Shown: in pieces, positions 4,676-28,391 of the stretch
Numbering within the stretch: position 1 is the stretch's first letter
Layout: each line of letters begins with the position of its first letter
Assembly: GCA_029775925.1 (NCBI GenBank)
Contig: JARVKB010000017.1
Span: 1 to 37,145 of the forward strand
Direction of reading: 5' to 3'
From: Nitrososphaeria archaeon
Lineage (GTDB): Archaea; Thermoproteota; Nitrososphaeria; Nitrososphaerales; JACAEJ01
Length of the DNA stretch: 37,145 bases
Position numbers and translations under genes: made by a program
Notes under the pieces: model-generated
Told to the model about the DNA's origin: nothing
Databases searched by the model: none
Seen by the model: only the letters and a program-made list of their open reading frames with translations

Positions 4676-6082
4676 CTAAGCCCAATATTTTGTGAGAAAG
4701 CTTTTTATCTGGGAAGAGTCTCTAGGACCTACGATTACCTCCCAACCCGTTAAATCTTCTATCTCTCCTTTTAGCCTTGCTGCCAATCCAGGGATGATGA
4801 GCTTTTTATGCTTCACCATCTTTTCTATTCCTGATGAAGTAAAAAGATCTTTTACTTTGGATGGATTGAACTGTCCTCCTGCTACAGATACTTCAACAGC
4901 CAATCCTTCAGCATCCAAAACTAGCAAGTAGCAATTTATCCCTGCAGATTCAAGGTCGTTAGCTACTGTGAAATATGTTAGAGCGAAATTCGTTGTAAGG
5001 AATACAGGAGATTTCTCATCTGGCTTTCCTATAACACGAAGGCCAGATTCCACCGAGACTGGCTTCCTTGGGTCTGTGTAGATATTTTGTCTTAAGGTTA
5101 GCACTGGGAGAAGGGCCCAAATTTCTGAGGTGTGCATTATTAAAAGATCAGCGAATCTATTCATGAATAAAGATGCCATACAAGCTTCTCTATAAGATGC
5201 AATTACAGGTTCTTGATTCTCAACCATCCAGACTACTGCTGGCACCGCCATTATAGGATAGCCAAGATCTTTATCTCCTCTTTTTATCGCTGCCCTTCTT
5301 ATCATGATAAAGTTGTTAACACTATCCCTAAGAAGATTGCCTTCTGTGTATGAACCTGCATCTATGACTATATCATGAATTCCTATAGCTTGTAAAGTCT
5401 TGATCAAAGATTTGATTAAAGATAAATTGTTAGGTGCAAAGACGGCTACTGGACAATCGTATTGTTTAGCCAGTTCTGAAAATTCTCTCCAATTTTCCTC
5501 TGTTACAGCGTATAATAACGGTCTTTTATTGGCTACTTGCCCTTTCTCCAGTGCAGCTCTTAAAATTTTAGGATCAAAAGAGCAAAGAATCAAGGGGAGA
5601 TTACAGCTTCTTGCCACAAGGGATACCACATAAGAGAATCGATCAGGATCTTTTGATGCGCATCTAACAGCTATCATATTAACCTTAAGAGTATCGCCTA
5701 TTCTAACGATAGAAATAGATTCTATTTTTTTACATCTCTCAACAATCTTATCGTCATCCATCGTATCGCTCACATCTATAGCTATTGCTGTAGGATTATG
5801 ATAAGTTAGTTCATGTCTATACATCACTTCTTTTCCTCCTATTTTTACCAAATTTTCTCCTACGCCTAACTTTACCTCTTTTATAGGAGGAGCAATAAGT
5901 TCGATAAGCTTGGCTAATTGTTCTTTGTACTTTGGCTTCTTCAAAGGAGGGCAGTTATCTGGAGTAGCCCTTCTATCTAAGAGCTTAGAAGCGAATGCCA
6001 TACAATTAGGCTCGCCACACTCTCCACAGTTCGTCTGAGGGAGATAACGATAAACTGAGAGTAATGTTACTTTCTCAGGCAT
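4676..6082 (-). CDS. cdhE: CODH/ACS gamma subunit (large corrinoid iron-sulfur protein)
   Basis: A 468-residue homologue of CdhE/AcsC. The N-terminus has the [4Fe-4S] motif with C19, C22, C27 and C44 (NCGECGEPNC...NCPPL), the site that reductively activates the corrinoid cobalt. A TIM-barrel domain follows (about 100-330), and a C-terminal corrinoid-binding region has LTTNFALTYFTVANDLE and VEVSVAGGQF. Known role: with CdhD it carries the methyl group between tetrahydropterin and the A-cluster of acetyl-CoA synthase. It follows cdhD with a 3-base gap. Length and motifs are normal and nothing is missing. Confidence 0.95.
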   Translation of the reverse strand: MPEKVTLLSVYRYLPQTNCGECGEPNCMAFASKLLDRRATPDNCPPLKKPKYKEQLAKLIELIAPPIKEVKLGVGENLVKIGGKEVMYRHELTYHNPTAIAIDVSDTMDDDKIVERCKKIESISIVRIGDTLKVNMIAVRCASKDPDRFSYVVSLVARSCNLPLILCSFDPKILRAALEKGQVANKRPLLYAVTEENWREFSELAKQYDCPVAVFAPNNLSLIKSLIKTLQAIGIHDIVIDAGSYTEGNLLRDSVNNFIMIRRAAIKRGDKDLGYPIMAVPAVVWMVENQEPVIASYREACMASLFMNRFADLLIMHTSEIWALLPVLTLRQNIYTDPRKPVSVESGLRVIGKPDEKSPVFLTTNFALTYFTVANDLESAGINCYLLVLDAEGLAVEVSVAGGQFNPSKVKDLFTSSGIEKMVKHKKLIIPGLAARLKGEIEDLTGWEVIVGPRDSSQIKSFLTKYWA

Positions 6083-6085
6083 TTT

Positions 6086-7309
6086 TCACAACCCTATATC
6101 AGTTATCCAGTCTTGAATTCTTTGATCAGCGTTAACTTCTCCGTAAAGACTCTCTATCAATCTCTTTATAATTCTAACCGTGGCAGGATGGCTCAACATA
6201 AAAAGGTCTCCTCCAGCCATCATGGCTGTGATCGTTGTTACAGTCTCCCAAAGAGGACCTCTGTACTCTTTTGGCCCCCACTCTTCAGACTTCATCCAAG
6301 CTTCTCTAGCCCCCCAACTATTGCTCGTTGAGGCGAGGATGGGCATCTGTAGATCAGGATCCCCAAGAAGACCTGCAAGCTTAATTCTTTCCATCAAGCT
6401 GAGAGTATAATCAAGACCGTAGCCAAGGGCTGCAGTGGTAGGGTCTATGATGATCTGCTCCTTCGATAATCCTTCATCAAGGAGAAGCCTATTGAGCTTC
6501 TTCTGATTGTTTATATCCATAGGCGTGAAGGCTACAACTATATGATTATGCTGCTTAGCTGCTCTCGCTATTCTTTTGTAATCATTATCAATATTAGCAG
6601 AATTTAAAATACATCTTTCACCACTCGCCACTTCAGCAGCAGCCTCTAAAACCAAAGGGTCCTTGGCCTTATTGCCAGACCCTCCTATTATTAATGGTAC
6701 ATCTACAGCTTGCAGTACATTTTCTACAGTCTTAGCAGCCTCCTTCGGGGATGTATCTTTAATCAAAGGATCCGTGCTTATCAGATTAAGAGAGACTATC
6801 TCAGCACCGAAGTCTTCAACTTGTCTCTTCGCCCATTCCGCAGGATCGTGCATGACATCTTCAAAGTGCTGTCTTACAGATTTTGCTAATTCTATAGGCA
6901 TATCGAATATATCCATAGCAATAGCAGGCTTATTTGGGTTCAAAGCTTCAAAGCTATAGAAAGGCATCGTCTTCTCGCCCCCTATCTTTATTACCTTTCT
7001 CCTAGACCCGCCTTCAGATCTTGTAGCACCTATCTTAACTTCAGTGATCGTTCCCGGATAGGTTTCTATAGGTGGTGAGAATTCTGCTTTAAGTAAAGTT
7101 TCTATCTTCTTTTCAACTTTTTGTGTGATTTGAGGAATTTGTGCTGTAAACCCTACCATTGGTTGGATTATAAAGGTAAGTTCTTCAGCTCTAATTTCTA
7201 CATTCTCTAATTCTAAATCTCCAAGTTTTTCTATAAATTTAGCCAGGCTCTTCATCAATGCTTTTATCTCTTCTTTTTCTTCAATTTCATCTCCTAAGAA
7301 GATGGCCAA
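6086..7309 (-). CDS. cdhD: CODH/ACS delta subunit (small corrinoid iron-sulfur protein)
   Basis: A 407-residue homologue of CdhD/AcsD with a TIM-barrel fold: conserved MPFYSFEALNPNKPAIAMD (about residue 115), LISTDPLIKDTSP and QIIIDPTTAALGYGLDYTLS. It pairs with CdhE to form the corrinoid protein that hands the methyl group to acetyl-CoA synthase. The start is TTG, supported by GGTGAT four bases upstream. No ATG in this frame lies near the expected N-terminus. It sits 17 bases after cdhC and 3 bases before cdhE. In methanogens a cooC gene often separates cdhC and cdhD; here it does not. Confidence 0.95.
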   Translation of the reverse strand: MAIFLGDEIEEKEEIKALMKSLAKFIEKLGDLELENVEIRAEELTFIIQPMVGFTAQIPQITQKVEKKIETLLKAEFSPPIETYPGTITEVKIGATRSEGGSRRKVIKIGGEKTMPFYSFEALNPNKPAIAMDIFDMPIELAKSVRQHFEDVMHDPAEWAKRQVEDFGAEIVSLNLISTDPLIKDTSPKEAAKTVENVLQAVDVPLIIGGSGNKAKDPLVLEAAAEVASGERCILNSANIDNDYKRIARAAKQHNHIVVAFTPMDINNQKKLNRLLLDEGLSKEQIIIDPTTAALGYGLDYTLSLMERIKLAGLLGDPDLQMPILASTSNSWGAREAWMKSEEWGPKEYRGPLWETVTTITAMMAGGDLFMLSHPATVRIIKRLIESLYGEVNADQRIQDWITDIGL

Positions 7310-7326
7310 TTTATCACCAATCGAGA

Positions 7327-8772
7327 TTACTTCTTCTCACGCTTTATGATTACCTTCTCAGCCGTTATCTTTACATTCTTTAGTATTATTCTTATCCCGC
7401 CTTGACCTGGTATCTCAATGGTAGGGGCTTGAGCAGGCAATACAGCTTCTTGTACTTTCTCTTCAACCTCCTCTTCAACTTCTTCTTCAGCTTTAACGAC
7501 TTCTTCAACCTTCCACTGACTTACGACAGGATGCTGTTTGCTCTTCAGAAACTCTTTAAGCTCGCCTATACTCTTACATTCAACTTCCGTAGCTATTTTA
7601 TCACGAAGATGCTCGGGTATAGAATCCTTCACTCTTTCTTTTATCTGGGAAGGCATCCAGACTACTCTCTCCCAACCACCATCTGCTTGAAGGAATTTTG
7701 GAGATCTAAGGTATTCTATCGCTATTCCATTGAAACCAGGATTTTGTGTTCCTCCACTTGTATGCCCAGCCATGGATGAGAAAGTTAATCCATTAACCGT
7801 AGATCCTTTATAATCACGATGTACAATCCCTATACCATCGACTTCAGGTATGTAGAAAGCTATACCCTCAAAACAACCACATGAAGTATGGGGATTATCG
7901 AACATACTGTAAAGAGAAATCGATTTTATAGCTCCTAAAGACTTCTCATGTGCTACTTTATTTATCCCTTCATAAACACCTTTTATAGGGTCTATACATT
8001 CACCTTTAGGAATTGGGAAGTTAGGACCTTTAGGATCTACATTGTAAGCAGCTCTAGCATCAAACCAGCTTATAGAGCCACATGATCCTATCCTATTTGG
8101 AGTTATAACACAAATATGGCTTGGTGCAAAAGATTGGCACATAACACACGCATAGAATTCATTAACTTCTTCATCCTTCAAAGTCCTTGCTCTAACATCT
8201 CTCTTACTCCATACCTCCATAGCTATAGGAAATAATTCCTCAACCTTTTCCTTGTCTGTGTAGATTGTTATTTGTATCTTTTCTATAACAGGGAAGCTAG
8301 ATTTGTATAGCCATGCAAGTATCTTACCAATCCAGACTAATGAATTCAAACCCTTTTGATAAGACCTTTTACTTATCCTTATCCAGACATCATACCTTTG
8401 ATTGAGGTGCATCACTCCTTCAATATAGTTCGTAAAGTAATGAATTCTTCTCTCCAAAACACCTTCTAAGTCCTTCTCTACCTTCTCACCAGCAACCTCT
8501 ACCAATATGCCAATAGGATAGCTTCCTCCAGGATTCATTTCTTGAATGTCAGGCCCTATCACCGTGATTTTTCCATCTTCTATTTCTTCAATAGGCCTTG
8601 TTAGGACCAATTCCCACTTTCTCTCAACGTTCATGCCTCCAAACTCTACATACATGTCTGGCTTGCGGATTCTTTCTCCTTCATACATCTCTCCAACATC
8701 TACAGGGAATTCAGGCTTCTCAAGGCCTATTATGTTCGTTTTTTCTTTAAAGACATCACATGAATCAGACAT
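7327..8772 (-). CDS. cdhC: CODH/ACS beta subunit (acetyl-CoA synthase, A-cluster)
   Basis: A 481-residue archaeal-type acetyl-CoA synthase, lacking the bacterial N-terminal CODH-binding domain. The A-cluster cysteines are plain: C209, C212, C221 and C231 for the [4Fe-4S] cube (CVMCQSFAPSHICVITP...GSCG), and the CGC motif C298-C300 that holds the distal nickel. The spacing equals that known for the Methanosarcina CdhC. The C-terminus has a Glu/Val-rich linker (about 420-445), then a short domain also seen in archaeal homologues. Reaction: condenses CO, a methyl group and CoA to acetyl-CoA, or the reverse. AAGGTGG provides a good ribosome site for the ATG. Confidence 0.96.
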   Translation of the reverse strand: MSDSCDVFKEKTNIIGLEKPEFPVDVGEMYEGERIRKPDMYVEFGGMNVERKWELVLTRPIEEIEDGKITVIGPDIQEMNPGGSYPIGILVEVAGEKVEKDLEGVLERRIHYFTNYIEGVMHLNQRYDVWIRISKRSYQKGLNSLVWIGKILAWLYKSSFPVIEKIQITIYTDKEKVEELFPIAMEVWSKRDVRARTLKDEEVNEFYACVMCQSFAPSHICVITPNRIGSCGSISWFDARAAYNVDPKGPNFPIPKGECIDPIKGVYEGINKVAHEKSLGAIKSISLYSMFDNPHTSCGCFEGIAFYIPEVDGIGIVHRDYKGSTVNGLTFSSMAGHTSGGTQNPGFNGIAIEYLRSPKFLQADGGWERVVWMPSQIKERVKDSIPEHLRDKIATEVECKSIGELKEFLKSKQHPVVSQWKVEEVVKAEEEVEEEVEEKVQEAVLPAQAPTIEIPGQGGIRIILKNVKITAEKVIIKREKK

Positions 8773-8782
8773 TTAAACCACC

Positions 8783-9319
8783 TTAATGAAGGGATGATTT
8801 CATCATTCCAACCAAGCTCTTGATTTCTTGTATCCATCTCTTTTCACTCATATTTTCAAAAGAAAACTCTGCGTTTGGATGATAGAATCTATCTATTGAG
8901 AATGTTTTCAAATGTGGAGCAAAATGTTTTAGAGTTGAGAGCATGAGAGACTGAAAGTAGTATATTCCTGCAATGAAAATAACAGCATCATAATTGCCCT
9001 CATCGTCGAAACCTTTCCAATCTTTATCCTTTAATCGATTTATCAAATCTTCAATGCCCATACAGATCACTTTAATATCTTTAAAATTGATGAAATTCTT
9101 GCAAAGACCTGGAGAAACTACCAATGGTGAATTCATCAATTTAGCCAATTCTACTATGTATTTTTCTAAATCGTTTCCCTCAAAAGCTTCCTTTCTACTC
9201 CCTACAACCATCAAAGGTCTTTTCAAAGTCTTTGCTATCTTAGGGAACATCTCCACCCTTAGCACATGGGCTTGTTTTGGACCTGGTATATCAGCTATCT
9301 GCCATGGTGTTGCTGACAT
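8783..9319 (-). CDS. cdhB: CODH/ACS epsilon subunit
   Basis: A 178-residue CdhB homologue with the typical start ATPWQIADIPGPKQA, a Rossmann-like core, and RPLMVVGSRK near residue 35. It forms the alpha2-epsilon2 CODH part together with CdhA; a FAD- or electron-transfer role has been suggested for the family. The open frame runs back to TTG at 9337. The ATG at 9319 is preferred, because it follows the cdhA stop by one base (TGATATG) and begins right before the conserved PWQ block. It is followed 10 bases later by cdhC. Confidence 0.93.
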   Translation of the reverse strand: MSATPWQIADIPGPKQAHVLRVEMFPKIAKTLKRPLMVVGSRKEAFEGNDLEKYIVELAKLMNSPLVVSPGLCKNFINFKDIKVICMGIEDLINRLKDKDWKGFDDEGNYDAVIFIAGIYYFQSLMLSTLKHFAPHLKTFSIDRFYHPNAEFSFENMSEKRWIQEIKSLVGMMKSSLH

Positions 9320-9320
9320 A

Positions 9321-11651
9321 TCATTCCATCCTAACAATCTGCCTTTCTAATAATGTAGGATCTGGAATTTCCACAGGCTCCCACTTCCTCTCTTTAAGTA
9401 TTTTTAATAGCTGATCTTTCATTGTTATTGGAAGATCGGATTCATTTCTTACGAATAGATGAAAATCATCAGGAATCATCCCGTAGAGTTTCTGATGAAG
9501 ATCGATATAATGTGAAAGTTTGATCATTCTACCTTTACTTGTATCATTCGGCCTCATTACAAGCCTTGCTGCAGTTACCATTGCCTCTTCTTTTGTTTCT
9601 GCAACGTACAATAGATGCTCAGGAGCAGGTCCAGCATAGACTTTTTCACCAGTCCTTGCGTTATACACCATCCATTTTTCCTTCTTATCTTGCCTTCCAA
9701 GAAAAGCTCTTCGAAACTTCGCTCCTTGAGGGCCTAAAATCACAGGTATGCCTAATCTATTCGCACCAGTAGCTATTGCAGCTGCTTTTTGATGCTGAGC
9801 ACCCCATGCTATTGCAACCGCTCCTATTCTGTTCAGAATATAGTCTGCTATTTCTTCAAAATTGCCCCTCAATTTTCTTTTCGCAAATATGTTAGCAATC
9901 TTTACTGCAGCACCCATTATATGGGCATTGGATACACATGAACCTGTATTGACTATGCAACCTGCATCGAAATCTCCTGCATATTTTTCATACAAAGTCT
10001 GGCCGTCCTCGTCTTTATAGCGAGCAATATCCATTGCTGAACAGCCTGAAGCTAAGACGATGTATCTTCTCTTTGCAAATTCATCAGCCATCTCTACCAA
10101 TTCTTTATTACCATTCGGATAATTCGCACAGCCTACAAAGGCTATTACACCAGGTATCTCTCCCATGACTATTGATCTTCCAACGTTTCTGATCTCAGTA
10201 TCTTTTATCGGCCCTCTTCCAGATCTTACTTTGTACTTCTCATTTCTTATCTTCTCCATAGCTGCCACCCTTATTGCAGATACTATGGGTATATGCTCAG
10301 GGCAATCACTCTCGCATCTAGCACAATTCAAGCATCTATCATAAATCTGAGCTAAAAGATCAAGATTCTTATCACGAGCAGCACTAACTGCATCATCTAT
10401 AGGCAAATCTGCAGGGCAATTTCTTCTACAACGCCCACAAGCCCTACATCTTAGAACTGCATTAAGAATTTCTTTTTCTTCTGATATGGTGCTCGCTCTT
10501 CTACTAGGAGCTATTTCTAAGGCTACTTTGACAGCTACTTCACCAACCTTTGCCGGGTTATTTATAAAGACTGCAGGAGTATTTCCTGAGGCAATTTCTT
10601 TCACTATTAAATCTACAGGGCTCTTTGTCATGTCTGGAAGATTAGCACAAAGCTGATCTGTAGTAACGATGACTCTTGTTCCAACCTTCTTAGCCTCCTC
10701 AATTATATCTGTTCTGATGCATTCTTCATCAAGGACCATTACATCAGCAACCCCTGATCTAACGAATATTAGCTGCCTTGATAAAGGACCTACGATCTTT
10801 GCACCAGTAGAGTACCTTGTCAGATCATGGGCTGTACAACATATGCCAGCAACCTCTACGGATCCATAGATGCCTTCTTTTTCAAGATAGTTTATTATTT
10901 CTGAGCCTGGAGCAACGTTATGCCCTATGCACAGTATTACAGGCTTAGACTTATCAACAACCCCCATCCCTAAATCTACAAGAGGTGCTTCTGGGTCTCC
11001 TTTTGGGAATCTTAAAGCTGATATCTGGGCAATGTCTGCTACCTCGAGAGCTAGGTTATCGATCATCCCTGCATGCAGTGCCTTTGATTCAAAATCTATG
11101 TAGTTTGCTTCTTGCCCTGTAGCTGTTGCTGAAAGAAGATGAGTTATTTGCTTTTCAATATAATCGAGGACTTCTTCAAGATCTCCTAGCTTCTTAGGTT
11201 TGATCCCTGCAACTAAACGGGTTAAAGGTGCTTCAAGGTCTATCTCTTCTCCAAGATGGATAGGATAGTCTCGACCTTTCCTTTTTATCAGATAATCGAG
11301 AAGATGACGGGCATGAGTAGCATGGCATGCTGCACCCATAAGGCAAGCAATCAAAACGATCTTTCCTTGCTGGCTTTTAATATCTATCCCACAAGAACCC
11401 TTTTTTCCTTTTGTTAAATCACACTTACCAAAAGTGCAAAGACAGCACATATCACAAAGAGGAGAGTAAAAGGGCTCGTATCTATTGAGGAGGCGATGAT
11501 CCCAAGCTCTTAAATCGATTATCGATGGATAGGGAGTAGGACCTACAATTTCATCCCATTCTTCCTCAATTATCTTCCCTATAAGAAGCTCCAATCCTTT
11601 AATGTTGGCAAAGCTCGACTTTAACTCATTTATAGATAGCTTTGTAGCCAT
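9321..11651 (-). CDS. cdhA: CODH/ACS alpha subunit (nickel carbon monoxide dehydrogenase)
   Basis: A 776-residue archaeal CODH catalytic subunit. The N-terminal cysteine block CDMCCLCTFGKC serves the B/D-type clusters. A central insert of two ferredoxin-like motifs (CRACGRCRRNCP and CLNCARCESDCP, about residues 405-460) is specific to the archaeal form. The C-terminal half supplies C-cluster ligands, including the GCSAMD and NTGSCVSNAH regions. Reaction: CO + H2O to CO2 + 2 electrons, and CO2 reduction in the synthesis direction. A very strong ribosome site (GGAGG) precedes the ATG and lies inside the last codons of the upstream regulator gene, which links translation of the two. Confidence 0.96.
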   Translation of the reverse strand: MATKLSINELKSSFANIKGLELLIGKIIEEEWDEIVGPTPYPSIIDLRAWDHRLLNRYEPFYSPLCDMCCLCTFGKCDLTKGKKGSCGIDIKSQQGKIVLIACLMGAACHATHARHLLDYLIKRKGRDYPIHLGEEIDLEAPLTRLVAGIKPKKLGDLEEVLDYIEKQITHLLSATATGQEANYIDFESKALHAGMIDNLALEVADIAQISALRFPKGDPEAPLVDLGMGVVDKSKPVILCIGHNVAPGSEIINYLEKEGIYGSVEVAGICCTAHDLTRYSTGAKIVGPLSRQLIFVRSGVADVMVLDEECIRTDIIEEAKKVGTRVIVTTDQLCANLPDMTKSPVDLIVKEIASGNTPAVFINNPAKVGEVAVKVALEIAPSRRASTISEEKEILNAVLRCRACGRCRRNCPADLPIDDAVSAARDKNLDLLAQIYDRCLNCARCESDCPEHIPIVSAIRVAAMEKIRNEKYKVRSGRGPIKDTEIRNVGRSIVMGEIPGVIAFVGCANYPNGNKELVEMADEFAKRRYIVLASGCSAMDIARYKDEDGQTLYEKYAGDFDAGCIVNTGSCVSNAHIMGAAVKIANIFAKRKLRGNFEEIADYILNRIGAVAIAWGAQHQKAAAIATGANRLGIPVILGPQGAKFRRAFLGRQDKKEKWMVYNARTGEKVYAGPAPEHLLYVAETKEEAMVTAARLVMRPNDTSKGRMIKLSHYIDLHQKLYGMIPDDFHLFVRNESDLPITMKDQLLKILKERKWEPVEIPDPTLLERQIVRME

Positions 11652-13785: not shown

Positions 13786-14343
13786 TTATCTTCTCCTAAA
13801 TGGTTGCTTCAGCTTCAATGCTAAAGTCTTCTGTAAACCTTCAAAGGTCTCTACGATCTTCTCTTTTGCAATATACTGATCTTCCTCGACGACCCTGACA
13901 CCACGCTCTGAGATTGTAACAGGCTCGAGGACTATTGGTGATGATAGGCCGAGAAGCTTACTTATTACTCTAATGGTCCTAGGATAGGTTACACCGTTCC
14001 TATAGCTAAAGAATAGCGCTCCTGATTCAATACTAGGCTTTGGTTCCAGAGGAACAATAAGGTCCTTCGAGGAGAAACCTTCCACGAAACTTTGAATATT
14101 TGCTTCTATGTCATTAATCAACGCTTCTCTCTTTTCCTCCAAAGCTTTTGCTCTTCTGATAAGGTCTGATTCATCCTTCCATTGATACCCTGCCAGCTTT
14201 GCAAATCTGGTCTCTCTTTGATCTCTCTTGGGTTTTTGCTTTAACTCCTCTTTAACCCATGCTAAGTCAGCTTCTACCTGCTTAAGTTTTTCATCATCAT
14301 CTTCAAGCCTGAGCGCGATACTCTCTAAATCAGAGAAATCCAT
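13786..14343 (-). CDS. Coiled-coil protein paired with the tubulin-like GTPase
   Basis: A 185-residue protein that I do not recognise. Residues 1-50 and 60-95 are charged heptad-like helices (LRLEDDDEKLKQVEADLAWVK and a second stretch RRAKALEEKREALINDIEAN), so an antiparallel coiled coil is likely. The second half (about 95-180) looks globular, with LIVPLEP, GALFFSYRNG and PIVLEPVTIS strands, and ends in a basic tail KLKQPFRRR. It begins 18 bases after the tubulin-like gene, with GAGGT as ribosome site in that gap. The arrangement suggests a partner such as a nucleator, regulator or membrane/DNA adaptor of the filament. This is inference from order only. Confidence 0.75.
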   Translation of the reverse strand: MDFSDLESIALRLEDDDEKLKQVEADLAWVKEELKQKPKRDQRETRFAKLAGYQWKDESDLIRRAKALEEKREALINDIEANIQSFVEGFSSKDLIVPLEPKPSIESGALFFSYRNGVTYPRTIRVISKLLGLSSPIVLEPVTISERGVRVVEEDQYIAKEKIVETFEGLQKTLALKLKQPFRRR

Positions 14344-14361
14344 GTTAAAGATTACCTCGAA

Positions 14362-15714
14362 TCAGCTGAAGTGATTAACGACATTGATGAGGCTCTGCTT
14401 GAACTCCTCCTGTTTTAGTCCCCACCTTTCGTATTCAGCCTTGTAACCATCCCAGGCATCCTCAGCCTCCTTGGCTATTGATAGAATCTTACTGCCCATG
14501 GCTTTATTGTTCATTAGGACTAAGATCCCTCCAGGCTCTCCTCCCAAGCAGGGAATTCTTATGAAGATTATCCTTTTGTCCTCTGTCGGGAACCTTTCTT
14601 TGATAATCTTCCTCAAACGCTCTCTATGCTCATGTTCAAACTTACCTCGGGCCTTCACCAATACACAACAAGAACTCTTTTCTCCAACCATACGGCTTGG
14701 CTCTTCGCCTTCAAAATCGAATAGCACACCATCCCTGGCTTCTGATAATGAGTTAAGTATGCCTTCAATATCAGACTCCTTTGGCACAACAGGGATGAGC
14801 CAAGGGTATACAAACCTAGGCTTAGAGCTGGCCAACCAAGTTCTGTAGTTGGACATATCCCACTCTGTTTCTCTTGTAAAAGAGGCTACGAAAAGTGATA
14901 TCATGTGGGCTGCTATTAGGTTCATGTTCCTATAATCTCTCCATCCTATCTCAAGCTCTTCGGGGAGCTCATCCACTATAGATGATCTCTTTGAAAGATC
15001 GTTGCCAAACCTTGCTGCTAGGTTCCTTAGAGCTTTGTTGTCTATTAGTATAGGCATATCTGCATATTTGATCTGATAGTCAAGGTTCATAACAATACTT
15101 ATAGACGCTGGTCCTAAAATTACAGGATCCCATCCAAACTCTGGGATCACTCCGATGGTCGCTATTACCTGAGTCCCACCACCTGTGTTTTTGACATGCT
15201 CCATGAAAGCACTGGCAAAAGCACCGCCTGTCCCCCCACCCATAGCGAAGGGTATGCTGAAGCCTCGAACAGGCTCAGGCGATAATTCTTCAAACCTTCT
15301 TTGCACATCGTACTTAGTCTCGATTTCATTCCTAAATCTTGACCTACCTTCTGCCCAATTTCTAGCAGCTCCTCCCATTCCATAGAGAGCATGCTTATCT
15401 TTCATGGCAAAAAGCTCTGGATAGGATTGTAATATTAGATTCGCAGCTCTAGGGTCAAGGTCTATAAGAAGGGCTCTAGGGACAAGAGGCAGCTCATCCT
15501 TCTTATATGGAACTCCGAATCTAAGGACTGTTCCACCATACCTCCTCAGAACATGAATCTGCTCTTTTTCACCCTTAAGAACGGGGCGGCGGGGATCAGC
15601 ACCAACATCAGTAAGGATCCAACGGTAAGCTTCCGCCCCTATTCCAATTCCACAGTGCCCAAAGGCTGCGCAGATCACAGGGTTTGGTGCTAATGGCGCT
15701 CGCTCTAATGTCAT
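14362..15714 (-). CDS. Tubulin-superfamily GTPase, closer to tubulin than to FtsZ in its motifs
   Basis: A 450-residue protein, the size of eukaryotic tubulins. Nucleotide loops can be followed in order: T1 GHCGIGIG at 19-26 (tubulin GQCGNQIG), T2 LIDLDP at 83-88 (tubulin LVDLEP), T3 with NWAEG at 119-123 (beta-tubulin NNWAKG), T4 GGGTGG at 159-164 (GGGTGSG), and IDNKALRNLA at 224-233 (tubulin IDNEALYDIC). H7 (MNLIAAHMISLFVASFT) leads into a T7 region near 281-293, then KPRFVYPWLIPV as in tubulin strand S7. The C-terminal helices (AEDAWDGYKAEYERWGL...) resemble H11-H12. The T7 acidic catalytic position appears to be Asn289. It has a strong ribosome site (GGAGGT). Artubulin, OdinTubulin, CetZ and TubZ are relatives to compare. 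Confidence 0.88.
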   Translation of the reverse strand: MTLERAPLAPNPVICAAFGHCGIGIGAEAYRWILTDVGADPRRPVLKGEKEQIHVLRRYGGTVLRFGVPYKKDELPLVPRALLIDLDPRAANLILQSYPELFAMKDKHALYGMGGAARNWAEGRSRFRNEIETKYDVQRRFEELSPEPVRGFSIPFAMGGGTGGAFASAFMEHVKNTGGGTQVIATIGVIPEFGWDPVILGPASISIVMNLDYQIKYADMPILIDNKALRNLAARFGNDLSKRSSIVDELPEELEIGWRDYRNMNLIAAHMISLFVASFTRETEWDMSNYRTWLASSKPRFVYPWLIPVVPKESDIEGILNSLSEARDGVLFDFEGEEPSRMVGEKSSCCVLVKARGKFEHEHRERLRKIIKERFPTEDKRIIFIRIPCLGGEPGGILVLMNNKAMGSKILSIAKEAEDAWDGYKAEYERWGLKQEEFKQSLINVVNHFS

Positions 15715-15802
15715 AGCTTAATTACCTCCTTTAAATGAGATATCACATTAAAAATCTCTTCCTTATACATTTTACCACTTTATCTACTGTTAAGCTCATT
15801 TG

Positions 15803-26816: not shown

Positions 26817-28391
26817 TTACACATGCCTTGCTTGCAATTTATTTACAAGTTGACTTTTATATAGTGATCTGCTTCCCGTAAGAAAATAACTGACAACAGC
26901 TGAAATAACGGTGGGGACTATAAAGCTTGGATTCATAGTTTCAGCAACCAGGGTTATACTTGTCAAAAGGCTTTTGCTCGTCGCAGCCAGCACTGCAGCC
27001 ATTGATAATATGGCATATAAAACAGGCGTCTCAAGGTTCAAAGTTTGTGCGTAAATGAGCCCGAGTGTGCCGCCAACATAAAGCGATGGAATGAATAGCC
27101 CCCCGCTTCCACCGAAATTCAGTGTTACGCTTGTGGCCACAATTTTTAAAATTAAAAGTGCGGTCAAATTTGTCAAAGTTAATTCTCCTAATTCAGTCAT
27201 AGCTATTTTGTGAACGAAATCATAACCTAGCCCAAGCACTTCAGGGTAAAGCAAGCCTATGACGCCGAGAATTAATCCAGCAAATATGGTCATAAGCCAC
27301 ATTGGAAATCTGTTAGCAAGCCATTTGCTTATGCTGTTTGTTCTTTGAAGGGTTTCCATGAATGCTAAAGCCACTAATGCCACTAGAATTCCTAGAAAAG
27401 TTGCATGTATAAGAATGGAAAATGTTGGCATAAGAAAGATTTGGGTTGGGAAAATGGTTTCTGTTCCAAGGGTTATGGCAGACGTAAAATAGGCGGTAAC
27501 AGAAGCAATAGACGCTGGAATAAAAACCTCGGTTTCAACGTCTCTCTTGTAAGGCATTTCAAGCGCAAATAATATCCCCGTCAATGGAGCCTTAAAGATC
27601 GCTGAAAATCCCGCTGCTGCTCCACATAAAAACAATGTCTTAACATCTTTTTGGCCTAACTTTAGCCTTCTTGTGATAAATGAAGAGATTCCTCCGCCTA
27701 ATAGAAGACTTGGCCCTTCTAATCCAGCACTTCCACCGAAACCTATAGTTATTGCAGAAGCCAAAGTTTTACCTATAGTATCTCTCAAGCTAACAAAGCC
27801 GTTTTTAAAATGGTATCTTTCAATTACAAGCTCCGTTCCGCAACCGAATTCTTTGTTTTCCGCGAAGAGCCTTGTTGTTATATATCCTCCGAGGAGCGCG
27901 ACGCTTGTTGACGCTAAAAGAAACAGAGAATTCCAGTTTATAATAAAAAATGATGCAGAAATTAGCAGTTTGTAAATGTTGACGAGAAGGAATATGGCCA
28001 AGCCTATTACAACGCCTAAAAATAAGGGCAACAGCCAATACTTCGCAAATTCAAAGAAACTTTCACTGCTCACTCTCAGATTTGTCTGCTCCCCATCTGC
28101 GCTTCGCTCTATTTCTGCTAGTTTTCTAATGTCGCATATCCCATATTTTTTAACAGCTATAACCAGCAAAGCCAAGACTATGGCGGCTACACAAGTGTCC
28201 ATGGAAAAAGCAAGTATCAGAAATGCTTCGCCTAAAGCCCTATTCAAAGAAGAAGCTAACAGCACAAAATCCATTGACGCCGCCACAGCGATAATTCCAA
28301 TGGAAATTAACACTTTAACAAGCTGACGCTTGGTCAATAAGCCGTAAATACCAACAGCAAGCAAAAAAGCCGCCAAAATCATGTAATCCAT
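26817..28391 (-). CDS. NuoK-like domain fused to a ClC chloride channel/antiporter
   Basis: A 524-residue protein in two parts. Residues 1-92 look like NuoK/MrpC-type subunits: three membrane helices, ILAAFLLAVGIYGLLTKR, LISIGIIAVAASMDFVLLA, and ALGEAFLILAF...LLVIAVKKYG, ending with a short CDIRKL as in NuoK. The proton-relevant Glu of helix 2 is replaced by Gly. Residues about 112-515 form a full ClC protein: AGLEGPSLLLGG with gating-type E225, ALEMP with E278 at the proton-glutamate position, and GGSGGLFIPS at 427-436. Both glutamates are kept, so Cl-/H+ exchange is more likely than a channel. The start overlaps the NuoJ-like stop (TGATG). Confidence 0.88.
   Translation of the reverse strand: MDYMILAAFLLAVGIYGLLTKRQLVKVLISIGIIAVAASMDFVLLASSLNRALGEAFLILAFSMDTCVAAIVLALLVIAVKKYGICDIRKLAEIERSADGEQTNLRVSSESFFEFAKYWLLPLFLGVVIGLAIFLLVNIYKLLISASFFIINWNSLFLLASTSVALLGGYITTRLFAENKEFGCGTELVIERYHFKNGFVSLRDTIGKTLASAITIGFGGSAGLEGPSLLLGGGISSFITRRLKLGQKDVKTLFLCGAAAGFSAIFKAPLTGILFALEMPYKRDVETEVFIPASIASVTAYFTSAITLGTETIFPTQIFLMPTFSILIHATFLGILVALVALAFMETLQRTNSISKWLANRFPMWLMTIFAGLILGVIGLLYPEVLGLGYDFVHKIAMTELGELTLTNLTALLILKIVATSVTLNFGGSGGLFIPSLYVGGTLGLIYAQTLNLETPVLYAILSMAAVLAATSKSLLTSITLVAETMNPSFIVPTVISAVVSYFLTGSRSLYKSQLVNKLQARHV

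Follow-up and report, generated by a model that had tools for sequence, protein, structure and literature searches.

A linked artubulin and partner gene pair in Nitrososphaeria, including lineages without amoA

The window studied here, a 37,145-nucleotide stretch of DNA from a Nitrososphaeria archaeon, encodes a tubulin-like protein of 450 residues which, judging from its sequence, is an artubulin, that is, a member of a published family of archaeal tubulin relatives (Yutin & Koonin 2012, PMC3349469), and is neither an FtsZ nor a new class of tubulin. Directly downstream lies the gene of a partner protein, and the two genes stay together so strictly across the order that they read as a true conserved module. 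We think it rather probable that artubulin and its cognate partner operate as one unit, in which artubulin would form a GTP-binding, head-to-tail filament and the partner would bind it for bundling or anchoring, giving an extra cytoskeletal element.

The two ORFs (Table 1) are separated by 18 nt, and the motif preceding the partner start codon gives this gene a ribosome site of its own. The two-gene arrangement, the gap and the downstream ribosome site had all been claimed in the first-pass annotation, and both ORFs and both Shine-Dalgarno sites could be located exactly. Most likely, the genes form one transcription unit. A convergent thioredoxin-reductase-like gene lies downstream of the pair, and a gene for an AAA-associated-domain protein, together with an ABC transporter, lies ~170 nt upstream. 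CODH/ACS subunit genes occupy positions 4676-11651, past two plus-strand genes from the pair; the 'central carbon operon' described earlier as adjoining is therefore real, but it is a separate unit and not a conserved neighbour. We reject a functional tie of the pair to CODH/ACS or central carbon metabolism and regard the neighbourhood as fortuitous, since the genes surrounding the pair differ in other lineages. The artubulin gene has a GC content of 0.458 and a GC3 of 0.43, against 0.378 GC for the window and a GC3 of 0.27-0.32 for neighbouring genes; such raised values could stem from transfer or from expression level. Elsewhere in the window, a 524-aa ORF (26817-28391, minus strand) unites a NuoK-like domain (Oxidored_q2, residues 3-93, E 1.9e-13) with a voltage-gated chloride channel domain (residues 166-505, E 3.5e-74), which is an unusual fusion, and a NuoJ-like ORF lies just upstream of it.

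Table 1. Coordinates of the artubulin and partner genes and associated features in the window
Feature	Position	Strand	Remarks
Artubulin gene	14362..15714	-	450 aa, ATG start; tubulin-superfamily GTPase; ORF call
Partner gene	13786..14343	-	185 aa, ATG start; helical hairpin, alpha/beta domain and basic tail (predicted)
Shine-Dalgarno GGAGGT, artubulin gene	15724..15729	-	9 nt before ATG; read from sequence
Shine-Dalgarno GAGGT, partner gene	14354..14358	-	10 nt before ATG; read from sequence
T7-like segment EWDMSN, artubulin residues 284-289	14848..14865	-	From alignments; aligns with NVDLTE of alpha-tubulin

The 450-aa ORF is not a chance reading, because it matches Pfam Tubulin (PF00091, E 1.2e-13) above the curated cut-off and has full-length homologues, at 55-97% identity, in dozens of related Nitrososphaeria genomes. 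NCBIfam covered neither this protein nor any of the 32 aligned artubulin sequences with a model. Over its 450 residues it is 55-60% identical to the proteins of Nitrosarchaeum, Nitrosotenuis and Nitrosotalea (55-63% across these and the homologues from non-ammonia-oxidising Nitrososphaeria), and two other genomes of the window's family encode artubulins 97% and 88% identical to it, with intact frames. Of 101 related genomes, 20 had full-length homologues once four weak matches (G010, G012, G026 and G058) were set aside, which were proteins of ~890-960 aa aligned over 60-70 residues only and were not counted; 80 homologue loci were kept in named genomes, including Nitrosotalea devanaterra, Nitrosotenuis chungbukensis and Nitrosarchaeum. 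In G012 (family f7) there are four tubulin-superfamily matches, with a 903-aa FtsZl1-like protein ~3 kb from a 431-aa one. The family assignment follows from the Nitrosarchaeum orthologues, at whose loci a Snf7 gene (PF03357, E 9e-10) and a dCMP deaminase gene stand beside the tubulin gene, as Yutin and Koonin reported for artubulins (PMC3349469). No Snf7/CdvB gene was found among the genes of the window locus; this neighbour is no defining mark of the family, as it is also missing beside the artubulin described from Nitrosotenuis (PMC3835317). It follows that the system is not wholly 'undescribed', as first proposed, given that its tubulin belongs to a published family, nor are artubulins rare, being widespread in Nitrososphaeria.

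The tubulin affinity of the protein, already suggested in the first-pass annotation, is borne out by both tree and fold. Our tree comprised 22 sequences, namely artubulins, alpha-, beta- and gamma-tubulin (checked against PDB entries), partial Asgard tubulins, and FtsZ from the same genome, haloarchaea and Bacillus. Artubulins composed a single clade (support 100/100) on the tubulin side of the split between tubulin and FtsZ (100/99); haloarchaeal plasmid genes added to the tree grouped with FtsZ. The stem of the clade is long (2.6 changes per column), and the position of artubulins within the tubulins does not appear settled by this tree, as in the literature (PMC13394414). A single-chain AF2 model, of moderate confidence (pLDDT 74.6, pTM 0.80), is predicted to adopt a tubulin fold, a check proposed in the earlier annotation: in a Foldseek search of the PDB with this model, tubulins rank first (E 6.5e-16), and OdinTubulin matches it with TM 0.73/0.77.

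At the level of residues, the motifs listed earlier (T1 GHCGIGIG, NWAEG, GGGTGG and IDNKALRNLA) were all found in tubulin order. VPRALLIDLDP, GGAARNWAEG, GGGTGG and the H11-H12 region with GL..EEF align with alpha-, beta- and gamma-tubulin, and VPRALLIDLDP, GGAARNWAEG and other tubulin-type residues set the protein apart from FtsZ. The T1, T3, T4 and T6 blocks are retained in artubulins, so far as the alignment with tubulins shows, and the nucleotide-loop motifs are intact in sequence. Peculiar to artubulins, compared with tubulins, are an additional segment ahead of the PRALLIDLDP block and a ~17-residue insertion before H7, with invariant S245, I246, D248, L250 and P251; they have no acidic C-terminal tail, the window protein ending in VVNHFS. 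The T7 segment reads EWDMSN in all 32 aligned artubulins. Here, D286 corresponds to tubulin D251, and the position of alpha-tubulin E254 is taken by N289 in all 32; if this alignment of T7 is correct (local model confidence is low at residues 283-288), GTP hydrolysis is possibly weak or slow. Slow hydrolysis would be one possible way to stable artubulin filaments.

The partner gives a confident single-chain AF2 model (pLDDT 88.3), in which a helical hairpin (residues 3-36 and 59-90) is predicted to be followed by a small alpha/beta domain (104-151), a C-terminal helix (156-179) and a basic end; the last 14 residues carry a net charge of +2 to +6 in 32/32 partners. The label 'coiled-coil' initially given to the gene undersells the protein, which also has the conserved C-terminal alpha/beta domain. 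No credible counterpart was found in Pfam, NCBIfam, PDB sequences or PDB folds, and, within the reach of these libraries, the partner would appear to represent a family not described before. A weak match of the C-terminal domain to SDO1 (E 0.25) was not used, and ZapB, CdvA and SepF were rejected, as there was no Pfam match over the cut-off (ZapB reached E 0.028 for one f2 homologue only). The partner varies faster than artubulin, with 30-39% identity between the window protein and other families against 55-62% for the window artubulin.

For the linkage of the two genes, the order was surveyed through 400 genomes; artubulin occurs in 95 of them, at 98 loci, and all 95 also contain the partner. 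At 94 of the 98 loci, the partner lies adjacent, downstream and on the same strand, at a distance of 6-22 nt, and the other four loci are at contig ends; no artubulin locus with a readable flank lacks it. The pair thus remains together in related genomes, a point that the first-pass annotation had put forward as a check, while the remaining neighbours differ between lineages. Nre adjoins the pair in Nitrosotenuis and Snf7 in Nitrosarchaeum, while f11 has ribosomal genes and a divergent VWA gene there; TPR and SHOCT-like genes precede artubulin in Nitrosotalea-type loci. None of these qualifies as a constant neighbour or third component: Snf7/CdvB is confined to Nitrosarchaeum-type loci, the TPR gene to Nitrosotalea-type loci and the VWA gene to f11. 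The small f11 VWA gene (PF00092, E 4e-7; L006-L014, e.g., L006:2918-3493, plus strand) lies upstream of artubulin and recalls the VWA genes of FtsZl1 systems, and L032 and other Nitrosotalea loci have a conserved TPR gene and a small SHOCT-like gene two genes upstream. Two artubulin loci, L071 and L093, are filed as Gammaproteobacteria and 'bacterium'; their synteny or sequence is thaumarchaeal, so these records look mislabelled or contaminated.

The artubulin and partner trees have their main split in common. Moreover, in three artubulin-less genomes (G001, from the window's genus, G182 and G219), the partner persists at the old locus as a remnant with stops or a truncation, and no artubulin sequence is left there, which suggests that in these lineages the partner depends on artubulin. 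G003, where the partner alone was found, is no counterexample, because its contig stops where artubulin would be. Full-length partner homologues do occur without artubulin in six genomes of the ammonia-oxidising family f2, two of which were searched and had one tubulin-superfamily gene each, and many genomes of f8, also ammonia-oxidising, lack artubulin and have a shortened homologue that includes the C-terminal domain. The partner family is therefore wider than artubulin and has, or has gained, another role. In the partner tree, f2 falls between the two artubulin-linked groups (94/95; the tree carries a long-branch warning), the position that f2 would take had it lost artubulin and retained the partner. 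The f2 homologues have a radical SAM gene on one side and a small unknown gene on the other (L120-L123, in G007, G023, G034 and G042), with archaellum-like genes nearby; the short f8 homologue adjoins a dual-specificity phosphatase gene (L135:459-1481, L137:4680-5652) or, in other genomes, EMG1/Nep1.

The host genome, a 1.40 Mb assembly, encodes one FtsZ (360 aa) besides artubulin and three CdvB homologues. No amoA was found in it or in the other six family members searched. Among the families with artubulin whose genomes were tested, f1 (that of the window) and f11 lack amoA, and f3 and f10 have it; the artubulins of f1 and f11 are sister to those of f3 and f10 with a support of 100 (midpoint root), forming a deep branch. 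Artubulin was not found outside the order in 398 sampled genomes of the phylum, and a plasmid or viral origin of the pair was set aside after the viral contig and plasmid collections gave no match. In the open-access literature, we found no paper reporting artubulin in non-ammonia-oxidising lineages or analysing the partner, and both the presence of artubulin in two amoA-less families and the constancy of the partner go beyond the published record we found. Santana-Molina et al. (PMC9871819) remark in general terms on unknown coiled-coil genes near archaeal tubulin-like genes, and a figure legend of the 2012 paper (PMC3349469) lists a 'conserved hypothetical protein' as a neighbour, so the partner was probably seen before; its constancy is not described in the papers we found.

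How might such a pair work? The first-pass annotation had proposed the partner as a possible nucleator, anchor or depolymeriser. We favour a scheme in which artubulin would bind GTP and then polymerise head to tail into tubulin-like protofilaments, to which the partner, as a coiled-coil oligomer, would bind. The latter would bundle the filaments or use its conserved, basic C-terminal tail to anchor them to the membrane or nucleoid, and the resulting extra cytoskeletal element might help to shape or organise the cell or act in one step of its division, alongside FtsZ and ESCRT-III (CdvB). A role as the main division ring is unlikely, since FtsZ and CdvB are both in the genome and artubulin is often lost. 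A possible kinship of artubulins with the ancestor of eukaryotic tubulins has been discussed; to our knowledge none has been assayed so far, and we found no published assay of GTP-dependent filament formation by an artubulin. A partner that is constant beside artubulin and decays upon its loss offers a handle on artubulin function through co-expression of both. Artubulin, in turn, also occurs outside ammonia oxidisers, which separates it from this way of life and suggests that it arose earlier in the order. It is tempting to go further and, tentatively, with the odds somewhat against us, to see the two proteins as an old filament-plus-adaptor cytoskeleton of the order that predates ammonia oxidation and exists beside FtsZ and ESCRT-III, the partner having stayed on in a second role where families lost artubulin.

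Other readings have to be weighed against this scheme. That the partner is co-transcribed with artubulin and functionally separate from it, for example as a DNA-, RNA- or ribosome-linked adaptor, with shared regulation or co-transfer behind the linkage, would fit its faster variation and its persistence without artubulin in f2 and f8, in the latter beside EMG1/Nep1 or the phosphatase gene. We nevertheless regard it as rather unlikely, given that every artubulin locus with a readable flank has the partner while other neighbours change, and that only a remnant survives in three genomes without artubulin. A module for DNA segregation in the manner of TubZ-TubR-TubY, with filaments moving or holding DNA and the partner as a DNA or membrane adaptor, is suggested by the predicted coiled coil with a basic tail beyond it, which recalls the layout reported for TubY (PMC7762940), and by the compact two-gene cassette in changing neighbourhoods. 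The window partner, however, has no helix-turn-helix, no TubR-like gene is adjacent, and the pair is chromosomal and missing from the plasmid and viral collections, which makes this option very doubtful.

Two further alternatives concern the origin of the pair and the identity of its tubulin-like protein. It might have been imported recently into the host genome without an established role there, as the elevated GC and GC3 of the artubulin gene and its patchy occurrence within the window's family (found in G000, G002 and G006, absent or decayed in others) could indicate. Yet two family genomes have the intact, closely related copies mentioned above, artubulin sequences cluster by family, and loss would also explain patchiness, as the G001 remnant illustrates; we therefore consider a recent import unlikely. 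As for a divergent archaeal FtsZ or CetZ paralogue, which would share the GTPase core of the superfamily and be its second member in this genome, we practically discount it. A placement inside FtsZ, contemplated in the first-pass annotation, was not what the tree (built without CetZ) gave, and the split from own-genome, haloarchaeal and Bacillus FtsZ excludes an FtsZ identity; the protein has tubulin-type blocks that FtsZ lacks; the best 60 of 172 PDB sequence matches are all tubulins, including Asgard and Odin tubulins, with no CetZ among these 60; and published trees set artubulins apart from CetZ (PMC9871819).

Finally, we would like to compare the pair with known systems. Unlike eukaryotic alpha- and beta-tubulin, artubulin lacks the acidic tail and, in T7, the alpha-E254. 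OdinTubulin and Asgard AtubA/B are among its best structural and sequence matches; however, identity in the structural match is only ~17-18%, the artubulin branch is very long, and artubulins have the insertion before H7 and no pair of the AtubA/B type. A possible likeness to Prosthecobacter BtubA/BtubB with its TPR gene (bacterial kinesin light chain) lies in the presence of a TPR gene before Nitrosotalea artubulins, whereas the window locus has neither a TPR gene nor a heterodimeric tubulin pair. FtsZl1/Tubulin_2 systems (Makarova & Koonin 2010, PMC2875224) likewise combine a tubulin-superfamily domain with a coiled coil, and the f11 VWA gene is a further resemblance, but in FtsZl1 the coiled coil lies inside one long protein, whereas here it has a gene of its own; the length of 450 aa, the architecture and the lack of a Pfam Tubulin_2 match at E<=1 rule out this identity. 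In type III plasmid partition, TubZ-TubY also joins a tubulin-like GTPase with a coiled-coil partner ending in a lysine cluster, the lysine-rich tail of TubY binding membrane and DNA (PMC7762940). This hints at a possible mode of action of our pair, as a parallel of layout only: TubY has an N-terminal MerR-like HTH and sits with TubR, while the window partner gave no HTH match, belongs to a chromosomal pair and, unlike TubY, is predicted to have an alpha/beta domain between hairpin and basic tail. The closest relatives remain the artubulins of Nitrosarchaeum and Nitrosotenuis (PMC3349469; PMC3835317). The window host differs in having CODH/ACS and no amoA, its locus has no Snf7/CdvB neighbour, and its artubulin, on a deep sister branch, is ~13 residues shorter in the M-loop region; yet the proteins share full-length orthology and motif order, and the Nitrosarchaeum loci (L091, L095-L099) carry the same partner gene downstream.
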